Shown here: positions 401 through 55,224 of the stretch, one piece after another
How the letters are laid out: every line of letters starts with the position of its first letter
Numbering within the stretch: the stretch's first letter is position 1
Assembly: GCA_903920695.1 (NCBI GenBank)
Contig: CAIXNB010000024.1
Location: 1-64,000 of the forward strand
Source: an uncultured beta proteobacterium
Lineage (GTDB): Bacteria > Pseudomonadota > Gammaproteobacteria > Burkholderiales > Burkholderiaceae_C
Direction: 5' to 3'
Length of the DNA: 64,000 bases
The notes under the pieces: generated by a model
Database searches by the model: none
The model's input: only the letters and a program-made list of their open reading frames with translations
Told to the model about the DNA's origin: nothing
Translations under genes and position numbers: made by a program

Positions 401-538
401 CGCCCAAAATAAGCATGCCAAAGCAGGCGTCGCAGAAATTTAAGAAAGGGAGATCGAAGTGAGGAACAATACGGGCATAGAAGATCGGAACATTGAGCCA
501 ACCGAACTTACGGACAAGTCGAGCTTGGTCTTTCGCTT

Positions 539-2041
539 ATGCTTGCCACAACAGAGACAAAGATGCCCCTCAACAACCTAGTCAAGCGTTTCGTTGCGCG
601 TGCCGAAGATCGCAGTGTAGAAGATCACTACTTTCGGATAGGCCTCGCAGCGGCAATGATTGCCAATATTGTGTTCGCCGGGTTGCGATTTGCAAATGAA
701 CAAATTGGGGGCAAGGCAACTGGCTACTGGATCAATGTTGTTGGTGCGCTAGGACTCGCATTGTTGACAGTGGTGTACTGGCGAGATCGTCGCCAATTCC
801 ATCTCGTTTTGCAGCTTGGTCTTGCGCTCTGCGCGTTTTGTCTCGTTCTGCCTTTGCGCTACGGCATGGATTCTTCACCGTGGTGGCTTTCCATTTTGCC
901 GCTGGCCGCTACCCTGCTTATTGGCGCGCGCGCCGGACTGAGTTGGGCGGTGATCTGCATTGCGTTGAACATAGGCGCGCAATGGCTGGCACCAAGGTTC
1001 ATTTTCCCTGACGCTGCCGGCGAGGCGTGGACGGAAGCAGCCGCCAGTCGTGTGATGTTGGTCGTGTTGCTGTTCGGTATCGCCTTGCGGTTTCGCATTG
1101 TGGTGACCCAACTCGCCAGGCTGGATGCGCTGACCCAAGTGCCAAACCGACTGGCCGCCAATGAGCGGCTTCGCGCGGAGTTCTTGAGCATGAAGCGATC
1201 CAAGAACGTTTATTCAATGCTGATGATGGATATAGATTCCTTCAAGCGCGTCAATGACACCTATGGCCATAAGATTGGTGATCAAGTATTGCAGCGGGTT
1301 GCAACGACCGTGCAGGCGACTTTGCGTGAGAGTGACTTCTGCGCCCGTTTTGGCGGTGAAGAATTCCTGGTCTTGCTACCCGCCACCGGCAAGCCTGCTG
1401 CGTACCATGTGGCCGAGAAACTTCGGCAAGCGGTCCAAGCGTCGCCAGACCCGATTGCGGGTCGCATCACGGTGAGCATTGGGCTGGCGCTGGCCAATCC
1501 TGAACAAACTGACGAAGACATTGCGGTGCGTGAAGCGGATGAGGCCCTGTATCGTGCCAAGAGCGCCGGTCGCAATCAGGTTCAGGTTGCGTCGACACTC
1601 GTTGCAGAGGTCAAGAAGGGTGCTACAGCCCCTCCCGACTTGGTGCAACTGGTCTGGCGCTCGGCCTACGAATGCGGCAACCCAAGCCTCGACGCACAGC
1701 ATCGGGAACTTTTCCACGGTGCAAATCAACTCCTGAGCGCGGTACTCAATGGACTTTCCTCACAGGACGTGACGGCCATGGTAGATGGTTTTGTTGCCGA
1801 AGTGGTCCGACACTTCCACGACGAGGAAGCCATCATTACCAAGGCTGGTTACCCTGCTGCGGCACAGCATGCCGATCAGCATCGCGCTCTGGTCGAGAAA
1901 GCCGCCGAGTTGGCCACGCGCTTTCGCGACGGAACGCTGTCGGTGGGCGAACTGTTCAATTTCTTGGCACAAGACGTGGTGTCGCGACATATGCTGACAG
2001 TTGATCGTGAGTACTTTTCGTATCTCAAGCCAAGTAAATGA
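539..2041 (+). CDS. Membrane diguanylate cyclase (GGDEF) with C-terminal hemerythrin domain
   Basis: Hydrophobic N-terminus; RFGGEEF active site with upstream RESD I-site; C-terminal hemerythrin signature (LDAQHRELF, HFHDEE, HADQHRALV, HMLTVDREYFSYL). Start could also be ATG at 566. Confidence 0.88.
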   Translation: MLATTETKMPLNNLVKRFVARAEDRSVEDHYFRIGLAAAMIANIVFAGLRFANEQIGGKATGYWINVVGALGLALLTVVYWRDRRQFHLVLQLGLALCAFCLVLPLRYGMDSSPWWLSILPLAATLLIGARAGLSWAVICIALNIGAQWLAPRFIFPDAAGEAWTEAAASRVMLVVLLFGIALRFRIVVTQLARLDALTQVPNRLAANERLRAEFLSMKRSKNVYSMLMMDIDSFKRVNDTYGHKIGDQVLQRVATTVQATLRESDFCARFGGEEFLVLLPATGKPAAYHVAEKLRQAVQASPDPIAGRITVSIGLALANPEQTDEDIAVREADEALYRAKSAGRNQVQVASTLVAEVKKGATAPPDLVQLVWRSAYECGNPSLDAQHRELFHGANQLLSAVLNGLSSQDVTAMVDGFVAEVVRHFHDEEAIITKAGYPAAAQHADQHRALVEKAAELATRFRDGTLSVGELFNFLAQDVVSRHMLTVDREYFSYLKPSK

Positions 2042-2275
2042 CCTGTTTCTGGCATGGCGCCTGGCCCATAATGGCAACAGATTTGTGCGGCAGCTGGCCT
2101 TGCATCAAGCGCTGGCACTACGTTGTTCGGATTTTCGCAATTGCTTTGAGAACCTGCAGACCTTGTGCGCTTCGTGCAACGCCACGGTTCTGATCTTCCC
2201 ACGCTGAATACGAAGTCCTTCGCCTGCAACAGGGCGAATCTTCCTGCCAACCGATAATCTACGGTGGAGAACCCG

Positions 2276-4612
2276 ATGAAGTACAAACTGACGCACGAAG
2301 AGATGATTTTTCGCGACGAAGTGCGCGAATTCCTCGCCGCTGAACTGCCCGAAGATATTCGCGCCTGCGGTCGCCGCACCTCCGGCATATTCTCAGACTA
2401 CCCCGAAGGGGTGCGTTGGTTGCGCATTCTGGCCAAGCGCGGCTGGGGCGCGCCGCATTGGCCGGTCGAGTGGGGCGGTTGCGCATGGAGCGCCCGCCAA
2501 CACGACATCTTTGCCAGTGAACTGGCCGCCGCCGATGCCCCTGCACTCTCGCCCCTGGGCCTGAGCATGGCGGCGCCCGTGCTCCTGGCCTTCGGCACGC
2601 CAGAACAAAAACAACGCTGGTTGTCTGGAATCCGCACCGGCAGTGACTACTGGTGCCAGGGCTACAGCGAACCGGGCTCTGGCTCGGATCTGGCCTCGCT
2701 GCAATGCCGTGCGCGACGCGATGGCGAGCACTGGATCATCAACGGCACCAAGATCTGGACTACCCATGCGCACTGGGCCAACCACATGTTCTGTTTGGTG
2801 CGCACCGACAGCAACGCCAAGGCACAGCAAGGCATCAGTTTCCTGATGTTCAGTCTTTCGAACCCAGGCATCACGATCCGGCCGATCATCAGCATCTCGG
2901 GCGACCACGAGTTAAACCAGGTGTTTTTCGACGACGCCCGCGTGCCAGCCGACGCCCTCGTGGGCGAAGAAAATCGCGGCTGGGCCATCGCCAAGTACCT
3001 GCTGGAACACGAGCGCGGTGGCGCTGGCGCACCGATGCTGCGCGCGCGTCTGGCACGACTGCACAGCGCACTCGATGAGGCCTTTGCGCAGCGCGCAACG
3101 GACGACGTGGAACGTGCCGACAACTTGCTCACCCTGGCCGATGCCGAGTGTCGTATTGATGCGCTGCATGCCTGGGAGCAGCAGGTGCTGAGCGCGCGCA
3201 TCGGTGACGCAACGAAGCCGCGTTGGATGCCCGTTGCACCGTCCATGGGCAAGACCCTCGTCACGGAACTCAAGCAGTACCTGACCGAACTGGGCATGAA
3301 CATCGCCGGCCAGCATGGTGCCACCGCGCTCGCCATCGAGCAGGCTAGCGCACATGCCTTGCCGATTCCTGAGGCCGCCGTATTCGCCACACGTGCCTAC
3401 CTGAACGACCGCGCGGCCTCCATCTATGGCGGGACCAACGAAGTACAACGCAACCTGATCGCACGTCACTTGATCGGCGCCGAGGTCAAGGATGCTCCCT
3501 TTGAGTTGAGCGAAACCCAGGCACTGCTGAGCGCCAGTCTGCAGCACTGGTTGGCCGACAACGCGCGCTTCGAACAACACGCCCAATGGCTGGAGACGCC
3601 GAGCGCGATGGCCCCGGCATGGCAAGGCCTGGCCGTGGAACTGGGCTTACTCGGTGCCGCGCTGCCCGAAGACCTTGGTGGTACCGGTGGCGGCATGGCA
3701 GAGCAGATTCTGATCTGCCAGGCGCTGGGCCAGGCTCTCATGCCCGCGCCCTACATCACGACCGCCGTGACCGGTGCGAGCTTGCTGCAAGCCTTGGAAG
3801 ACCCAGCGGCCAGGCCACTTCTGCAGGGCGTGGCCGATGGGCAGGTTCGACTCGCGGTCGCGGCGCTGGAGCCGGGGGGTCGCACCGACTTGTCCGCTGT
3901 GCAAAGCCAATTGCTCGGCCAAGGTGCCCACCTGCGGCTGACGGGTCGCAAGGTGCTGGTGCGGGGCGCACCCTGGGCCACGCATTGGCTGGTCAGCGCG
4001 CGCGACGAGACCGGGGTCTTGCGCATTGCGCTGATTGACCCTGCAGCGCCCGGCATCCTGGCGCGCGAGTTACGCCTGGCGGACGGCGCCTGGGCGTCCG
4101 AGCTTGCCTTTGACCAAGTGCCGGTGCTGGCTTTGATTGGCAGCGGCGATGCCCTGGCGGCGCTGGAAAAAGCCTTCGACATGGCGATGCTGGCCAGCGG
4201 GGCCGAGGCCGTCGGGGTCATGCAGCGCGTGCTGCATGACACGCTGGAGTACGTGCGTCAGCGCAAGCAATTTGGCCAGCCACTGGCCGCCTTTCAAGTG
4301 CTGCAGCACCGGCTCGCCAACATGTACATGGATCTCGTATTGGCCACTGCGGCGGTCGGCGCTTGTGCTGACATTGCAGACGACAGAGCGACCGAGCGCG
4401 CACGCCGCAGCGCGTCGGCCCACGTCGCCGTGCTGCGCGCGGCGCGCTCCGTCGGGCAGGGCGCCGTGCAACTGCATGGCGGCATGGGCATGACAGAAGA
4501 ATTCGCGATGGGTCACGGCTTCAAGCGTCTGACCGTCATTGAGCAACAATTTGGTGGCCTCACGCACCACCTCAGGCGCATCGCAACTCAACTTACCAAG
4601 GACCTGAAATGA
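2276..4612 (+). CDS. Tandem (two-domain) fused acyl-CoA dehydrogenase
   Basis: Two successive ACAD modules; YGGTNEVQRNLIARHLIG closes the first and LHGGMGMTEEFAMGHGFKRL is in the second; GGAG ribosome-binding site precedes ATG 2276. Confidence 0.85.
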   Translation: MKYKLTHEEMIFRDEVREFLAAELPEDIRACGRRTSGIFSDYPEGVRWLRILAKRGWGAPHWPVEWGGCAWSARQHDIFASELAAADAPALSPLGLSMAAPVLLAFGTPEQKQRWLSGIRTGSDYWCQGYSEPGSGSDLASLQCRARRDGEHWIINGTKIWTTHAHWANHMFCLVRTDSNAKAQQGISFLMFSLSNPGITIRPIISISGDHELNQVFFDDARVPADALVGEENRGWAIAKYLLEHERGGAGAPMLRARLARLHSALDEAFAQRATDDVERADNLLTLADAECRIDALHAWEQQVLSARIGDATKPRWMPVAPSMGKTLVTELKQYLTELGMNIAGQHGATALAIEQASAHALPIPEAAVFATRAYLNDRAASIYGGTNEVQRNLIARHLIGAEVKDAPFELSETQALLSASLQHWLADNARFEQHAQWLETPSAMAPAWQGLAVELGLLGAALPEDLGGTGGGMAEQILICQALGQALMPAPYITTAVTGASLLQALEDPAARPLLQGVADGQVRLAVAALEPGGRTDLSAVQSQLLGQGAHLRLTGRKVLVRGAPWATHWLVSARDETGVLRIALIDPAAPGILARELRLADGAWASELAFDQVPVLALIGSGDALAALEKAFDMAMLASGAEAVGVMQRVLHDTLEYVRQRKQFGQPLAAFQVLQHRLANMYMDLVLATAAVGACADIADDRATERARRSASAHVAVLRAARSVGQGAVQLHGGMGMTEEFAMGHGFKRLTVIEQQFGGLTHHLRRIATQLTKDLK

Positions 4613-9295: not shown

Positions 9296-10932
9296 CGGGT
9301 GCCAGGGAGCTGGTAATCCCGGAACTGCTGACGCAAACTGGTCTTGAGCAACTTGCCGGTTGCGGTGTGCGGCAGGCTGTCAACAAACACCACGTCGTCG
9401 GGCAGCCACCACTTGGCGATGCGCTGGCTCAGGTGCGCCAGAATTTCGCCCGGTTCAACCGCCACGCCGGGGCGTTTGACGATTAGCAGCAAGGGGCGCT
9501 CCTGCCACTTCGGATGCGCCACACCGATGACGGCGGCCTCGGCCACAGCCGGATGGGACATGGCAGCGTTCTCGACGTCAATCGACGAAATCCACTCGCC
9601 ACCCGACTTGATCACGTCCTTGGCGCGGTCCACCAGTTGCAGATAGCCATCGGGGTCGATGGTGGCGACGTCGCCGGTGGGAAAGAAACCGTCGGCATCG
9701 AGCACAGCGCCGCCTTCGTCGCGGAAGTAACCGCTGGCGATCCAGGGCCCGCGCACCAGCAGATTGCCGAAGGCCACGCCGTCCCAGGGCAGAGTGACCC
9801 CCATCGCATCGACGATCTTCAGGTCAACGCCCCAGACACCGCGCCCCTGCTTGAGCTTGATCTTGAGCAGTTCTTCGGGCGGGGTGTTGGCATGCTTGGG
9901 CAGCAGCTTGCTGATGACCCCAATCGGACTGGTTTCGGTCATGCCCCAGCCCTGCACCACTTCGGCGCCGAAGTCATTCTCGAAGCGTTCCAGCATGGCA
10001 CGCGCCACGGCCGCGCCGCCGATGCCGATGCGCTTGACACCGATTGAGCGCGGATCGATCTGTGGATTCGCGTCGAGGTACTGAAACAGCATCAGCCAGA
10101 CCGTCGGCACGCCTTGCGAGAAGGTCACGCGCTCATCATGCATCAGCGTGAAGATGCTCTGCCCGTCCAGATGCGGCCCGGGCAAGACCAGCTTGGCGCC
10201 GACCATGGCGGCGGCGTAAGGCGCACCCCAGGCATTGGCATGGAACATGGGCACGATCAGCAACAGGGTCTCACTCGAACTGATGCCAAAGGTATCGGGC
10301 GCCAGTTCCATCAGCGTGTGCAGCAGTGTCGAGCGGTGCGAATACAGCACGCCCTTGGGGTTACCGGTGGTGCCCGAGGTGTAGCACAGCGAGGACGCCG
10401 AACGCTCGTCGAACTCGGGCCAGGTGTAGTCCGTGCTCTGCGCATCGAGCAGTTCTTCGTAGCACAAGAGGTTGGGCACCTGGATGGCGGGCATGTGGGC
10501 GCGATCGGTCATGGCGATAAAAGCCTTGACCGTCTTGAGCACGGGTGCCAGCTTCTCGACCAGCGCGGCAAACGTGATGTCAAAGAACAGGATCTGGTCT
10601 TCAGCGTGGTTGACGATGTAATCGATCTGCTCCGGGAACAGACGCGGGTTGACGGTGTGCAGCACCGCGCCGCTGCCCGAGACGCCGTAGTAAAGCGCCA
10701 GGTGGCGGTGTGAATTCCAGGCCAGCGTGCCAACACGAACGCCCTGGCCGATACCCAGCGATTTCAGCGCGTTGGCCACCTGCTTGCTGCGGTCGCGCAA
10801 GGCGCCCCAGTTGGTGCGGTGCACATTGCCTTCGGGCAGGCGCGAAACAATTTCGGTGTTCGGGTGAAACGTCGCCGCGTGCTCAATCAGCGACGAGATC
10901 AACAACGGGCGGTCCTGCATTAAGCCAAGCAT
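9292..10932 (-). CDS. Medium/long-chain fatty acyl-CoA ligase (AMP-binding)
   Basis: [23 protein letters not shown]-binding signature; [30 protein letters not shown]. Confidence 0.92.
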
Positions 10933-11031
10933 GCTTTGTCTCCTGGAAAAATTCTTGTTCGATGGTGTCTGGTTGCCCGGGGCCTGAAACGGCGCCCCGG
11001 GTCTTCAGAGCCAGTAGTACTAGACGCGGCT

Positions 11032-12243
11032 TTAACGGATGACTTCGTAGGCCTTGCCGTTGAAGCGCTGCAGCACCTTCTTCTCGATCGGGAAAAAGTC
11101 ATCGGCTGATGTCTGGATGTCGATGCCAGGGTAGAGCATGGGCGGCGTGAAGTGGAGGTTGGCTGCCTGCTTCATGATGTTCTCGCGCGTCAGGTTGTCA
11201 CCGGCCTGGCGCAATACCTGCGCCATGGTGGCGGCCACCGAGTAGCCGATCGAATTGAGCGAATCCTCAGGGTCGCCACCGGGGTAATACTGCTTCATCG
11301 TCGCCAGGTATTCGGCCACATCCTTGTTGCCAGCTGCTGCCGGATCAGAAGGGGTGAGCAGGTAGGTCGAAGAGATCACGCCGACGGCGTTCTCGAAACC
11401 AGCGGGCTTGAGCACGGCACTGGCCGACTGTGAAACGCTGACCAGATACTGGGTTGGCTTCCAGCCGATCTCGGCCGATTTCTTGATCGCCTGGGCCGCA
11501 AACTTCGGCGTCGTCATGATCACGAACACATCAGCGCCAGAAGCCTTGAAACTCACCATCTGGCTGTCGATGGTGGGGTCGGTCACTTCGTGTGTCAGGT
11601 GCTGCACGATCATGTGCTTGCCTTTTTCGCCCAGTCCATCGCTCAGGCCCTTCATGTAGTCCTTGCCGAAATCATCGTTCTGCATCAGCACGGCGATCTT
11701 GGCATTGGGCTTGGTGGCCATGATATGGCGCGCATAGAGCTGCCCTTCAGCCTGGTAGGTCGGCTGCCAGCCCATGGTCCAGGGAAAGGCCTTGGGATCA
11801 CCGAAGCGCGTGGCACCGGTGTTGACGAACAACTGCGGAATCTTCTTGGCATTGAGGTAGCGCTGCACCGCCATGTTGTGCGAGGTGCCAAGCGAGGCGA
11901 ACATCAGCAGCACCTCGTCCTGCTCGACCAGCTTGCGCGTCTGCTCGACCGAGATCGCCGGGTTGTAGGCGTCGTCGGCCGTGATGAAGTTGATCTTGCG
12001 CCCGTTGATGCCGCCGCTGGCGTTGAGTTTGGCGAAATAAGCGGCCATGGCCTTGCCGCATGAACCATAGGCCGAGGCCGGGCCGGAATAAGGCGTCAGG
12101 TTACCGAGTTTGATTTCGGTGTCGCTGGCGCCGGTGTCATACTTTTTTTGCGCCTGCGCCGCCAATGGCAGGCTGACCGCCAACAACAGACCAAGGCCGA
12201 GCTTGAAAGAGCGCCGCAGACCGGCATCGAATAATTTGACCAT
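11032..12243 (-). CDS. Branched-chain amino acid-type ABC transporter substrate-binding protein
   Basis: Signal peptide then YDTGASDTEIKLGNLTPYSGPASAYGSCGKAMAAYFAKLNASGGINGRKI; flanks liv-type permease/ATPase genes. Confidence 0.9.
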   Translation of the reverse strand: MVKLFDAGLRRSFKLGLGLLLAVSLPLAAQAQKKYDTGASDTEIKLGNLTPYSGPASAYGSCGKAMAAYFAKLNASGGINGRKINFITADDAYNPAISVEQTRKLVEQDEVLLMFASLGTSHNMAVQRYLNAKKIPQLFVNTGATRFGDPKAFPWTMGWQPTYQAEGQLYARHIMATKPNAKIAVLMQNDDFGKDYMKGLSDGLGEKGKHMIVQHLTHEVTDPTIDSQMVSFKASGADVFVIMTTPKFAAQAIKKSAEIGWKPTQYLVSVSQSASAVLKPAGFENAVGVISSTYLLTPSDPAAAGNKDVAEYLATMKQYYPGGDPEDSLNSIGYSVAATMAQVLRQAGDNLTRENIMKQAANLHFTPPMLYPGIDIQTSADDFFPIEKKVLQRFNGKAYEVIR

Positions 12244-29034: not shown

Positions 29035-30330
29035 CTATGCCGCGCTGCGGCGCTTCGCGGCGGCCTTGGCAGCTGCCGGTTTCGCGATGGTTTTGGTCGG
29101 CGCTTTCTTCTGCAACACCCTGCGGATCACCTGTTCGCAATCCTGCTGCGACATGTAGCTCGGTACCGGGTAGTTGAGGTCGGCCTCGCGGCAGGCGGCG
29201 CGGGCCAATGCCGGGATGTCTTTGGCACGCAATGCCTCCAAATACCGTGGAATGCCCAGATCTGCGTTCATGGCTTCAATCGAATCCATGAACTTCTGCG
29301 CCAGTTCGGCCTCGGGTTCGGACTTCTTGCCAAGCCCGACCCGTAGCGCCAGCACAGCCAGTTTCGCCGTGATGGCCGGGCTCAGGAAGCGCAGAACATG
29401 GGGCAGCATGATCGCATTGGCGAGGCCATGCGGCGTGTGGTACAGGCCGCCCAACTGATGCGCAATGGCGTGCACGTAACCGACGTTGGCGCGCGTGAAA
29501 GCTTGGCCCGCGTAATTTGCAGCCAGCGCCATCTTCTCGCGCGCCACCAGGTCCTTGCCTGTGGCGTACGCGACGGGCAGATTCTGGTAGATCATGCTGA
29601 CGGCGGTGAGCGCCATGCGGTCCGTGAAAGCGCTGCCCCAGTGACCGATAAAAGCCTCAATGGCGTGGGTCAGCGCGTCCATCCCGGTTGCTGCCGTGAT
29701 GTCCTTGGGCAAGCCTGTCATCAAACTCGGGTCCAGTGCCGCCATGGTGGGAACGATGCGGGTGTCGGCAATCACCAGTTTGCGCTGGGCGGCCTGGTCC
29801 GATACCACAGCGGCTACCGTTACTTCGGAGCCGGTGCCGGCGGTGGTCGGCACCGCGTAAATGGCAGCCGGCGCGTGCAAGCCCTTGAAGTAACCCACCA
29901 ACTGCTGCGGCCGCTTGTTGTTGGCAGCCGATAAACCAATGACCTTGGCCGCGTCCATGGCGGAACCGCCGCCAAACGCAATGATGGCGTCGCAGCCTTC
30001 GGCCTTGAAAATTTCAACGCCTTTTTCAATCTCATCAATCGGGGCGTCAGGGCTGACTTCATCGAACACGACAAATTCCGTACCGCCAGCCGTGAGCGCC
30101 TCGGTCATGGGCCGCATCAAGCCGAGCCGCGAAATGGTGGCGTCCGTGACAATCAGTATCTTTCGGTGGCCAAAGTCATTGATGATCTGTCCCAAGCGCC
30201 CACTGGCGCCGGGCCCCATCATCATCGTGGGCGTTGGAATGGGCAGCAACCGGGTCACAACGCCGGCGACACGCATCACGGTTGAAAGGCCGACGGATCT
30301 CGCAACGCCCGTCAAAATGTTCACAGCCAT
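29035..30330 (-). CDS. Iron-containing alcohol dehydrogenase with basic Ala/Lys-rich C-terminal tail
   Basis: IIAFGGGSAMDAAKVIGL, TTAGTGSEVT, GMDALTHAIEAFIG, HAIAHQLGGLYHTPHGLANAIMLPH; tail QKKAPTKTIAKPAAAKAAAKRRSAA. Confidence 0.92.
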   Translation of the reverse strand: MAVNILTGVARSVGLSTVMRVAGVVTRLLPIPTPTMMMGPGASGRLGQIINDFGHRKILIVTDATISRLGLMRPMTEALTAGGTEFVVFDEVSPDAPIDEIEKGVEIFKAEGCDAIIAFGGGSAMDAAKVIGLSAANNKRPQQLVGYFKGLHAPAAIYAVPTTAGTGSEVTVAAVVSDQAAQRKLVIADTRIVPTMAALDPSLMTGLPKDITAATGMDALTHAIEAFIGHWGSAFTDRMALTAVSMIYQNLPVAYATGKDLVAREKMALAANYAGQAFTRANVGYVHAIAHQLGGLYHTPHGLANAIMLPHVLRFLSPAITAKLAVLALRVGLGKKSEPEAELAQKFMDSIEAMNADLGIPRYLEALRAKDIPALARAACREADLNYPVPSYMSQQDCEQVIRRVLQKKAPTKTIAKPAAAKAAAKRRSAA

Positions 30331-30436: not shown

Positions 30437-32560
30437 ATGAAAACAGTTGTTGGGATCGGCCTGGGCGCCAGCGCTCAAGACTTCAAATTCACGACGAAGT
30501 TCCTCGGGCACCAACTCAGTGTCCATCGCGTGGGCGCCAATGGCAGCATCGCCAAGGCCAGCAGGCTCCTCAAGTATTGGGAAGCACGCGCCGACGTGAT
30601 TGGCCTGGGGCTGATCAAGGACCGCTACGAAGCCGGCACGCAGCGCTTCATTGAAGAAGACAGCGCAGGCCTGAAGGCCGTGGTGTCAAGGGTGCCGGTG
30701 ACCGATGGCGCAGCATTGGGCGACATCCTCCAGGAGTGGGCTGTACGCCACGCGCAGGCTGAACTCGGCAACTATTTCAACAACGCGCGCGTTCTGTTCT
30801 TCTCAGGACTGCGCAACAGCAAGCTCGCGTCGGCATTGGCTGAGCACACCGAAAATCTGATGTTTGCCGACCCATTGTTGCAACTCGGCGTGCCCAAGCT
30901 GCTGACGTCGATGGAGGCGTTGAAGCTGTACGGCAGCGGCGCGCACTACGTGCGAGACTGGGCGCCGCCCAGCGTCATGGCGTCTGACCTGGTGCGGCAG
31001 TGGACCCGCTTTGTACTGAGAAAGGCGATGCACAAGGCCAGCGTGATCGTTGCAAACCTGATTGACCTGGACGAGTTTGGCCTTGAGGAATTGGCCGGCA
31101 AGACCATCATCACCTCCACCGCCAGTGAGCAGCGCATTGCGCAACTCAGGGACAAAGGCGTCCACATGGTGATTGACGGCTCGCCGGTCCTGAAGGGACG
31201 CGTGCTGGGGCCTTACCTGCTCGACGCCATGATCTGCGCCGCCACCGGCAAGCAGCCGCAGGCCATTGGGCAAGACGACTACTTGGAGATCATCACGGGG
31301 CAACAACTGGCGCCGCGCATCATCTACCCCAACGGCTTCAAGCGTGTCAACCGCTTTGCGTTCGTGATCCATCCGCTGTCCCAGGAGTATTTCAAGAAGG
31401 TCAAGCCGATTGAATTGCTGTCGCAGGTATCACCGCCGGTGTTGATGGACTCGCTTGAAAAAATCATGGCCTACGCGCCACCTTTTGTGTATTCGCGCGT
31501 CTCGGGTATTCGTTCGCCCACGGGCGTCGAAGCCGAAGGCTGGTTGATTTCGGTGGGCGGCACGCCCAAGGAAATCATGCAGCACAACCCCGAGTTCACC
31601 TACCGGCGCTTGCTCGCCGCCGCCGCCATGGCCAGGCGGTTGGGCGCACAGATCATGGGCCTGGGTGCCTTCACCAAAGTCGTGGGTGACGCGGGCGTCT
31701 CGGTGGCCAGGCGCTCGGCGCTACCCATTACCACGGGCAACAGCTATAGCGCCTCCGGCGCGCTGTGGGCGGCCCATGACGCGCTGCTGCGCTTGCAACT
31801 CCTGCCCGTACCCAAGGGCCGGGAACGCGTCAAGTTCAAAGCCATGGTGGTCGGCGCCACGGGCGCCATCGGTTCGGTCTGCGCGCGCCTGATGGCCAAG
31901 GCGGCCGAAGAGGTCTACATGGTCTCGCCCGAAACCGCCAAACTGCTCTCGCTCAAAGAGTCCATTCTTCAGGAAACGCCGGACGCCAAGCTCTTTCTTG
32001 CCGCACGCGCCGACAAAAACATCGCCGACATGGACATGATCGTGACGGCAACTTCGGGTGCCGGCAAGAAAGTTCTCGACATCATGCAAGTCAAGCCGGG
32101 CTGCGTTATCACGGATGTGGCGCGTCCGCTGGACTTGCCACCCGAGGAAGTCGCCAAGCGCCCCGATGTGCTGGTGATTGAATCGGGTGAAATTCAACTG
32201 CCGGGCGATGTGCACATGAAGAACATCGGATTGCCCAAAGGCGTGGCCTATGCCTGTCTGGCGGAGACCATTGTGCTGGCACTCGAAGGTCGGTTCGAGA
32301 ACTTCACCGTGGGCCGCGCCATCGAGTGGGCAAAGGTGCGCGAGATCTACCAGCTCGGCATCAAGCACGGCATGACACTGGCCGCCATCTCGGGCGTGAA
32401 TGGTCCCTTCAGCGACGAAGACATCGAAGGCGTGCGCAAGCTCGCGCTGGCCGCTCGGGCCGACCAAGCCTCGCCCACGCTCACAGCGGCGCCGCGGCGA
32501 AAGGCGAAGCCTCGCAGCAAAACACCAGCCGCTCTTGCGAAAACAAGGGCTGCACGGTGA
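30437..32560 (+). CDS. Long-chain acyl-ACP/acyl-CoA reductase (AAR)-like protein with novel N-terminal domain
   Basis: C-terminal ~390 aa matches the layout of cyanobacterial AAR: FAFVIHPLS, LGAFTKVVG...TTGNSYSA, VVGATGAIGSVCARLM, and GVAYACLAETIVLALEGRFENFTVGRAIEWAKVREIYQLGIKHGM including the candidate active-site Cys; first ~310 aa unrecognised. Confidence 0.7.
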   Translation: MKTVVGIGLGASAQDFKFTTKFLGHQLSVHRVGANGSIAKASRLLKYWEARADVIGLGLIKDRYEAGTQRFIEEDSAGLKAVVSRVPVTDGAALGDILQEWAVRHAQAELGNYFNNARVLFFSGLRNSKLASALAEHTENLMFADPLLQLGVPKLLTSMEALKLYGSGAHYVRDWAPPSVMASDLVRQWTRFVLRKAMHKASVIVANLIDLDEFGLEELAGKTIITSTASEQRIAQLRDKGVHMVIDGSPVLKGRVLGPYLLDAMICAATGKQPQAIGQDDYLEIITGQQLAPRIIYPNGFKRVNRFAFVIHPLSQEYFKKVKPIELLSQVSPPVLMDSLEKIMAYAPPFVYSRVSGIRSPTGVEAEGWLISVGGTPKEIMQHNPEFTYRRLLAAAAMARRLGAQIMGLGAFTKVVGDAGVSVARRSALPITTGNSYSASGALWAAHDALLRLQLLPVPKGRERVKFKAMVVGATGAIGSVCARLMAKAAEEVYMVSPETAKLLSLKESILQETPDAKLFLAARADKNIADMDMIVTATSGAGKKVLDIMQVKPGCVITDVARPLDLPPEEVAKRPDVLVIESGEIQLPGDVHMKNIGLPKGVAYACLAETIVLALEGRFENFTVGRAIEWAKVREIYQLGIKHGMTLAAISGVNGPFSDEDIEGVRKLALAARADQASPTLTAAPRRKAKPRSKTPAALAKTRAAR

Positions 32561-52931: not shown

Positions 52932-54374
52932 TTACTTGGTTAGAAAGTCGAGGTATTTGGTGGCGAACTTCCCGTAGGGTGGCCACAGGAACTTCATGGC
53001 ACTGAAGGACGCCTGGTAAAAAACTGGACGCATCTTGGAAAAGGTGACGAAGCCTTCGTAGCCATGGTAATGGCCCATGCCACTGGCACCGACGCCGCCA
53101 AACGGCAGAGCATGCTGGGCAACGTGAAATAGTGCGTCGTTTACGCTCACACCGCCCGACATGACGCGGTCCAGCAGGGTTTGGATGATATGGGCGCTGT
53201 TGCTGAAGGGATAGATTGCGAGTGGACGCGGCCCGTGGTTGATGGCTGTGATGGGCTCTTCCAACGAGTCGTATTCCAGGATCGGCAGGATCGGCCCAAA
53301 AATTTCGCGGCTTAGAAGAATGCTGTCAGCCGGCGCATTGAGTACGAGGTGCGGTGCGATCTTGTTGCTGGCCGCATCCCACGGTTTACCCGGGATCAGT
53401 TGCACCAGCGTCGCACCAGCGGTCCTGGCCTCTTCCAGTGCCGTGGTGAGTCGCTGGAAGGCGCGTTCATCAATGATGGCGGTAAAGTCAGCCGAGTTCA
53501 GATCGGGATAGCGCGCACAGACGATTTCTTTTGCTGCTGCTACAAACTCATTGGTTTTACCCTTGGGCAAATAGACGTGGTCGACTGTGGTGCAGATTTG
53601 CCCGGCATTGAGCAGTTTGACAAACAAGAGTCGCTCGGCCGCTTTGCGCAAAGGGTAATCCGCACAGACGATGGCGGGTGACTTGCCTCCAAGTTCCAGT
53701 GTGATCGGGCAAAGATTCTGCGCGGCGGCAGCCATGACCGAGCGGCCGGTCTGGCCCGAACCAGTGAACAGCAGGTGGTCAAACTTGAGTTTTGAGAACT
53801 CGATGCCGACACCGCCGGTTTCATCGAAGAAAGCCAGCTTTTCCCGAGGAAAGTAGGTCGGCGCTTTTTCAATCAGGAGTCTTGCAAGATGACGCGAGTT
53901 TTCCGACATCTTGACCATTGCCCGGTTGCCGGCGGCAAAAATATAGATCAGAGGAACAAAACTCAGATTGATCGGAAAGTTCCACGGCACGATGCATCCG
54001 ACCACGCCCAGCGGCTGCGGGATGACCCGATTCCTGGCGCCCAGAAAGTTGCGCAGATCAATCGCCCGTTTTTGTGGCTTCATCCATTTCTTGAGATGTT
54101 TGAGTGTGTCGTTGATGGCATCGAGTGTCGGGAAAATTTCGGTAAACAGGGTTTCGTGTCGTGATCGACTCCCGTAGTCGGCGTTGACGGCGTTGACCAA
54201 GGCTTCCTTGTTGTCCCGAATAAAGGCCTGCAGTTTGAGCAGGTCGGCGCGGCGCTCGGCCAAGCTGGGGATCGGGTGCGAAAAATAGGCGTTGCGCTGG
54301 AGTTGCAGGCTGGTCTCAAGCCTATTGTCGATCAGGGCTTGGGGCATGTTGCTGTGCAGGGAGGAATCGTTCAT
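52932..54374 (-). CDS. Coniferyl-aldehyde dehydrogenase-like aldehyde dehydrogenase
   Basis: VIPQPLGVVGCIVPWNFPI, LELGGKSPAIV, LLNAGQICTTVDHVYLP catalytic Cys. Confidence 0.9.
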   Translation of the reverse strand: MNDSSLHSNMPQALIDNRLETSLQLQRNAYFSHPIPSLAERRADLLKLQAFIRDNKEALVNAVNADYGSRSRHETLFTEIFPTLDAINDTLKHLKKWMKPQKRAIDLRNFLGARNRVIPQPLGVVGCIVPWNFPINLSFVPLIYIFAAGNRAMVKMSENSRHLARLLIEKAPTYFPREKLAFFDETGGVGIEFSKLKFDHLLFTGSGQTGRSVMAAAAQNLCPITLELGGKSPAIVCADYPLRKAAERLLFVKLLNAGQICTTVDHVYLPKGKTNEFVAAAKEIVCARYPDLNSADFTAIIDERAFQRLTTALEEARTAGATLVQLIPGKPWDAASNKIAPHLVLNAPADSILLSREIFGPILPILEYDSLEEPITAINHGPRPLAIYPFSNSAHIIQTLLDRVMSGGVSVNDALFHVAQHALPFGGVGASGMGHYHGYEGFVTFSKMRPVFYQASFSAMKFLWPPYGKFATKYLDFLTK

Positions 54375-54531
54375 GGGGTACTTTCTCAACAAATGGTATT
54401 GCTGCTGTATCGGCTTTGAATCGGGCGCAGTTGGACCAAGTTGACCCAATATCGCACAGTAAATGCTTGCTTGACGCTGAAATGTCAAAAAATTTGAAAT
54501 TTTGGGGTATTCACCTTGAGGAATACAGGCT

Positions 54532-55224
54532 GTGTCTGCCAAAGTTGAAATTTCCCCTGCCATGGCTAGCAACTCTTGGTTCGGCGGTTTGCCGGAAAGT
54601 GATCGTCTGGCGCTGCTCGCGGCCGGTGAACGCCTTAATTTGCGCATGGGTGAAATGTTGTACCGACAGGGTGATACGCCGGGCGGCTTTTTCGGAGTTG
54701 TCAGCGGTTCGTTCAAGGTATCGACCTTGCGCGAAGACGGCAAGGAGGGAATTCTGGCGGTGATCGAGGCCGGGAACTGGTTTGGTGAAACATCGGTTTT
54801 TGACCAGTTGCCGCATCCGCACGATGCGACCGCGCTGGAGTCCGCTGAAGTGCTGGTGGTTGGACGCACCGCGTTTGAGGGGTTGACGGCCAGTCCGACC
54901 TTCGCGCGTGCGATGAGTGTTCTATTGTCAAGTCAGGTGCGCTTGTTATACGGCCTGATAGAGGATGTCTTGTTGCGCTCCACCAATACCCGTGTGGCAC
55001 GACGCCTGATGGCCTTGGTGCGCGGCGATGCTACGCTGGCCTGGGATTGCCGAACGGTCGTTCCGGTGTTACAGGAACAACTGGCAATGATGTTAGGCAT
55101 GAGTCGACAGACGCTGTCCAAGGAGTTGAAGGCGTTGGAGCGGGACGGGGTGCTGCTGGTGGGTTATCGTCGGATCGAAATATGCTCACTGGCTGCTTTG
55201 GAGTCCAGGAGCAAGCTGGGCTGA
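54532..55224 (+). CDS. Crp/Fnr-family transcriptional regulator
   Basis: cNMP-binding fold ([24 protein letters not shown]...[10 protein letters not shown]), [30 protein letters not shown]. Confidence 0.9.

Follow-up and report, generated by a model that had tools for sequence, protein, structure and literature searches.

The window, the 64,000-nucleotide stretch of DNA analysed here, encodes what is probably a two-lobed fatty acyl reductase. The protein would be composed of two tandem folds of the acyl-ACP reductase (AAR) type, with the C-lobe as the working one and an iron-containing alcohol dehydrogenase (Fe-ADH) and then WS/DGAT acting downstream. Its most likely role lies in the route from acyl thioester through fatty aldehyde and alcohol to wax ester. 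The gene is a single open frame (30437-32560, + strand) of 707 aa plus stop and is present in one copy in the genome. The features discussed below are as follows.

29035..30330, - strand: iron-containing alcohol dehydrogenase, divergent neighbour and conserved partner gene
30437..32560, + strand: putative tandem AAR-like acyl-thioester reductase (ORF translation; full-length homologues in GTDB)
30437..31345, + strand: N-half, residues 1-303, a diverged AAR-like fold without family match, probably non-catalytic
30791..30829, + strand: N-half residues 119-131 (VLFFSGLRNSKLA), probable counterpart of the NAD(P)H glycine loop; G124 and A131 are the sole invariants there
31214..31225, + strand: N-half residues 260-263 (YLLD), probable counterpart of CLAE 607-610; Cys absent (variable position), acidic D/E kept
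31346..32452, + strand: C-half, residues 304-672, a reductase domain of AAR/PigE type (matched by family, PDB sequence, and fold)
31730..31744, + strand: TTGNS motif, residues 432-436; G434 and N435 invariant, T433 in 99/100 homologues
31853..31873, + strand: GATGAIG, the GxxGxxG nucleotide-binding motif, residues 473-479; all three Gly in 100/100 homologues
32255..32257, + strand: Cys607 (Cys of YACLAE), equivalent of AAR catalytic C294; conserved in 100/100 homologues
32453..32557, + strand: Lys/Arg-rich tail, residues 673-707, variable (pLDDT <50 for 679-707)

Architecture and distribution

The sequence-only reading had divided the protein at about residue 310. The division into two halves stands, and its limits are refined to ~1-303 for the N-half and ~304-672 for the C-half, with the tail (673-707) set apart. 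The full-length AlphaFold model has a pLDDT of 82 and a pTM of 0.80.

A full-length homologue is encoded in 535 of 592 candidate stretches retrieved from GTDB by pattern matching, and 15 of 61 related genomes have the gene. Carriers amount to hundreds of GTDB species and include Rhodoferax, Rubrivivax, and other Burkholderiales, as well as gammaproteobacteria, e.g., Hahella and Ketobacter. All 80 retrieved loci span practically the entire 707-aa protein. Across these loci, mean identity to the window protein is 60% in the N-half and 84% in the C-half, and the N-lobe is the faster-evolving of the two. Matches to the N-half in the surveyed genomes always lie inside full-length frames (at least 686 aa), and the two lobes are thus probably one working unit.

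No relative was found in the viral contigs searched, and those found in the plasmids searched, PigE-type and others, all resemble the C-half. On a megaplasmid of Paraburkholderia phymatum (L153), an AAR-like stretch runs across two overlapping open frames (472-3447 and 2991 onward), either a frameshifted gene or two genes, and the first frame starts with an apparent acyl-carrier-like sequence. The copies in three relatives (L003, L005, and L006) are each listed with one in-frame stop inside the matched span. Two genomes of one gammaproteobacterial family, G494 and G458, have two copies of the reductase each (L102/L118 and L103/L119), with ~61% and 53% identity to the window protein. A scan for sigma-70 promoters and terminators returned nothing exceeding chance, and the antisense ORFs of the region were judged spurious.

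The reductase half and its N-terminal companion

The C-half is a well-supported thioester reductase, based on its family, PDB, and fold matches, the conservation of its motifs, and the alignment of Cys607 with AAR residue 294. Residues 306-677 match PigE NF053554 over profile positions 1-364 of 837 (E 2e-53, 181.7 bits), and residues 343-647 match AAR TIGR04058 (E 3e-19, 69.4 bits). The PDB sequence matches are PigE 4ppm (E 2e-26) and AAR 6jzq (E 4e-11). In the whole-protein model, the best fold matches are AAR (TMt 0.70-0.73; 6jzq 0.72) and the carmabin TAD domain. The AAR-like character proposed from the sequence is therefore confirmed, and by fold comparison the C-half is not a plain shikimate dehydrogenase (best TMt ~0.44 vs 0.72 for AAR).

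The Cys of YACLAE had been placed in the region of the AAR catalytic Cys, and Cys607 does align with AAR chain residue 294 (PMC9743570, PMC9594044). In the published mechanism, this residue is the catalytic Cys and holds the acyl thioester (PMC9743570). E610 is identical in 100/100 homologues. The acyl chain of an acyl-CoA or acyl-ACP would be transferred to Cys607, and the resulting thioester would be reduced to a long-chain aldehyde by a nicotinamide cofactor bound at GATGAIG. The mechanism is known for AAR and is proposed for the C-lobe from residue conservation; the substrate is presumably a fatty acyl thioester.

The N-half was described earlier as matching no recognised family, which agrees with the searches: residues 1-303 of the window protein have zero Pfam matches, the N-halves of 37 homologues have scattered chance-level matches only, and a PDB sequence search gave no notable match. 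The view of it as a new module without known relatives is not supported. Structure and profile evidence point to a second AAR fold that has diverged and probably lost catalysis, and the N-half is likely a degenerate AAR-type copy in which neither the catalytic Cys nor the glycine loop survives. The model of residues 1-303 has a pLDDT of 86.7 and a pTM of 0.85. Its top PDB TM-scores are to AAR (0.50, 0.46, and 0.46) and the carmabin TAD domain (0.48), and the other listed PDB matches have TM-scores of 0.37 or less. The Foldseek RMSD is large, at 8 Å.

Profile comparison of the N-half and C-half with hhalign gave no useful result when only orthologues were used (best E 0.057, in the correct register). 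The orthologues are too similar, and a broad superfamily profile of AAR, PigE-type, and TamH-type domains was therefore needed. Against this profile, N-half residues 12-290 align collinearly with the C-half over ~194-247 columns (E 0.0013, probability only 18%). None of 150 column shuffles reached the score, and 5/150 did so when blocks of 20 columns were kept. A separate custom profile aligner gave the same register and was equalled by 2/60 shuffles.

The order of helices and strands in the model, matched by eye, is identical in both lobes: first strand, beta hairpin, GLG strand, P(V/I)T-x-G, long helix, first Rossmann strand, and so forth up to the last helix and strand. Paired N/C motifs are ADVIGLG/AQIMGLG, PVTDG/PITTG, NARVLFFSG/FKAMVVGATG, and LDAMICAATGK/AETIVLALEGR. 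L261 or L262 was considered as the counterpart of C607 and dropped. In the hhalign alignment E610 falls on D263, which, with no gap between, places C607 on Y260.

Less likely, the N-half is an independent Rossmann-type domain that binds a ligand or has an activity of its own. Such a domain would fit the set of invariant polar residues that this half owns (R31, R104, Q107, N116, E136, N140, D145, K222, D247, and R294), the weak sequence signal between the halves, and the fold matches, which are mixed if ranked by E-value (the top one being the unrelated 6hb0). The TM-score ranking, the collinear profile alignment, and the identical element order all favour AAR instead. As a degenerate AAR copy, the N-lobe would most likely be a structural, docking, or regulatory part. 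The earlier suggestion that it generates the acyl substrate is unsupported, as it showed no signature of a ligase, transferase, or carrier; a part in selecting or docking the substrate is possible.

Neighbouring genes, wax ester synthases, and competing roles

Neighbouring genes were called with a codon-based caller. The Fe-ADH gene lies directly upstream of the reductase and divergent from it in 46 of the 74 loci with enough sequence. At L166 (genome G036), it lies 47 bp upstream in the same orientation as the reductase, and its retention despite the change in orientation argues for a functional link with the reductase. WS/DGAT adjoins the reductase at L055 and L056, the latter also with an AMP-binding acyl ligase. 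At L162, the reductase is followed directly downstream by a PRK07201-type acyl reductase and then by WS/DGAT; another WS/DGAT gene lies on the opposite strand.

Other frames in the window include a GGDEF diguanylate cyclase with a fused C-terminal hemerythrin domain (539-2041) and a 782-aa frame made up of two tandem acyl-CoA dehydrogenase units (2264-4612). The first 200 residues of an aldehyde dehydrogenase frame (52932-54869) have no Pfam match, which may be a start-site artefact.

WS/DGAT was present in all 33 carriers when both genome samples were pooled. In the set of relatives, it occurs in 15/15 carriers vs 22/46 non-carriers, and in one gammaproteobacterial order in 18/18 vs 95/277; p-values overstate the association because the genomes are related. 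Counted by genus, the same order gives 6/6 vs 50/112 (p 0.01), and the association is weak within the window's genus alone (p 0.06).

The window genome has three WS/DGAT genes, and a search for ADO (PF11266) found none in it; an alkane route is thus unlikely. A PF07993-type reductase is encoded there as well, close to one of the WS/DGAT genes (C50), so the two-lobed enzyme is not the sole acyl reductase of this genome. Most carriers of the genus have this second reductase as well (E ~1e-48 or better, frame near 700 aa). Judging from gene neighbourhood and co-occurrence, the aldehyde would be converted to alcohol by the adjoining Fe-ADH, and the fatty alcohol, at least in part, to wax ester by WS/DGAT.

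The same aldehyde-forming reductase may instead serve another end product, such as ether lipids, aldehyde signalling, or membrane repair, with the WS/DGAT co-occurrence reflecting lipid-rich lifestyles. The PF07993-type reductase in many carriers is consistent with this, as is the fact that most loci have no WS/DGAT neighbour. Several gammaproteobacterial loci adjoin housekeeping genes, apparently ppk, ppx, and rho as named by eye, and four loci (L023 at 10275-11393, L024, L045, and L068) have a ketoacyl-ACP synthase III-like gene of 372 aa directly 3' of the reductase, with a possible link to acyl-chain supply. Such a role is rather improbable, however, given the three separate WS/DGAT adjacencies and the unbroken co-occurrence in carriers. 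Moreover, the fragmented draft assembly of G012 has the reductase gene and two WS/DGAT genes without a strong PF07993 or any PF00368 reductase.

Very unlikely is a reductase that acts on a non-fatty acyl thioester, in the manner of the PigE reductase domain in the prodigiosin pathway. The C-half does score higher against PigE than against AAR, but the aminotransferase domain is absent, no pigment gene cluster was seen near the reductase, and fatty acyl enzymes are among its neighbours.

Relation to known acyl reductases

The protein is an outgroup, a member of neither AAR nor PigE, because its scores are far under the cut-offs of both families (449.7 for the AAR equivalog TIGR04058; 850, with an aminotransferase domain, for PigE NF053554). 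Shikimate dehydrogenase PF01488 scores 18.6 bits, below its gathering cut-off of 24.3. The 707-aa protein has no match to PF07993 (NAD_binding_4, male sterility; SDR-type fatty acyl reductase) or to PF00368 (HMG-CoA reductase-type domain, FcrA). The best placement for it is within the AAR/PigE/TamH superfamily, as a new branch marked by a degenerate N-lobe in tandem.

Cyanobacterial AAR (TIGR04058; 6jzq) shares with the C-half its fold, GxxGxxG, catalytic Cys, and the proposed two-step thioester mechanism. AAR is a single lobe of ~340 aa with an ADO partner, whereas the window protein has an extra N-half and comes from a proteobacterial genome without ADO. The AAR label given from the sequence is thus too narrow. 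The N-terminal reductase domain of PigE (4ppm) is the top sequence match to the C-half, with Cys and TGN motifs common to both; unlike the window protein, PigE carries a fused aminotransferase and has a role in prodigiosin formation, and the AAR-like lobe of the window protein is on the opposite side. The thioester reductase domain of PtTamH is likewise an AAR-type domain within a fusion protein with a fatty substrate, although there the fusion is to a transaminase (PMC9594044). In that study, C12 acyl-CoA gave no product with PtTamH, which was assayed as one step of a cascade that included the carrier protein TamA (PMC9594044).

A search limited to open-access papers found no description of the two-lobed reductase and nothing on Ketobacter wax esters, AAR in Rhodoferax, or carmabin TAD.

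Known wax ester acyl reductases are the SDR-type Acr1, AcrB, and FarA and the HMGR-like FcrA. These enzymes (AcrB corresponding to PRK07201) share the proposed step in the wax ester pathway with the window protein, and are unrelated to it or related at the Rossmann level only. A recent survey of wax ester acyl reductases looked for FarA, AcrB, and FcrA (PMC11948995). An AAR-type candidate across hundreds of proteobacterial genomes would extend this set. A more speculative possibility is a pseudoenzyme-enzyme tandem, in which the degenerate lobe, as an integral partner for docking or acyl sensing, passes the aldehyde to the ADH and wax synthase. Such a tandem would add a further class of fatty acyl reductase, based on AAR, to proteobacterial wax ester synthesis. 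Acinetobacter expressing a plain cyanobacterial AAR had increased aldehyde and little wax ester (PMC5806253). Since AAR-derived aldehyde is poorly used for wax ester there, the enzyme with the extra lobe would be a natural test of aldehyde channelling by the N-lobe.
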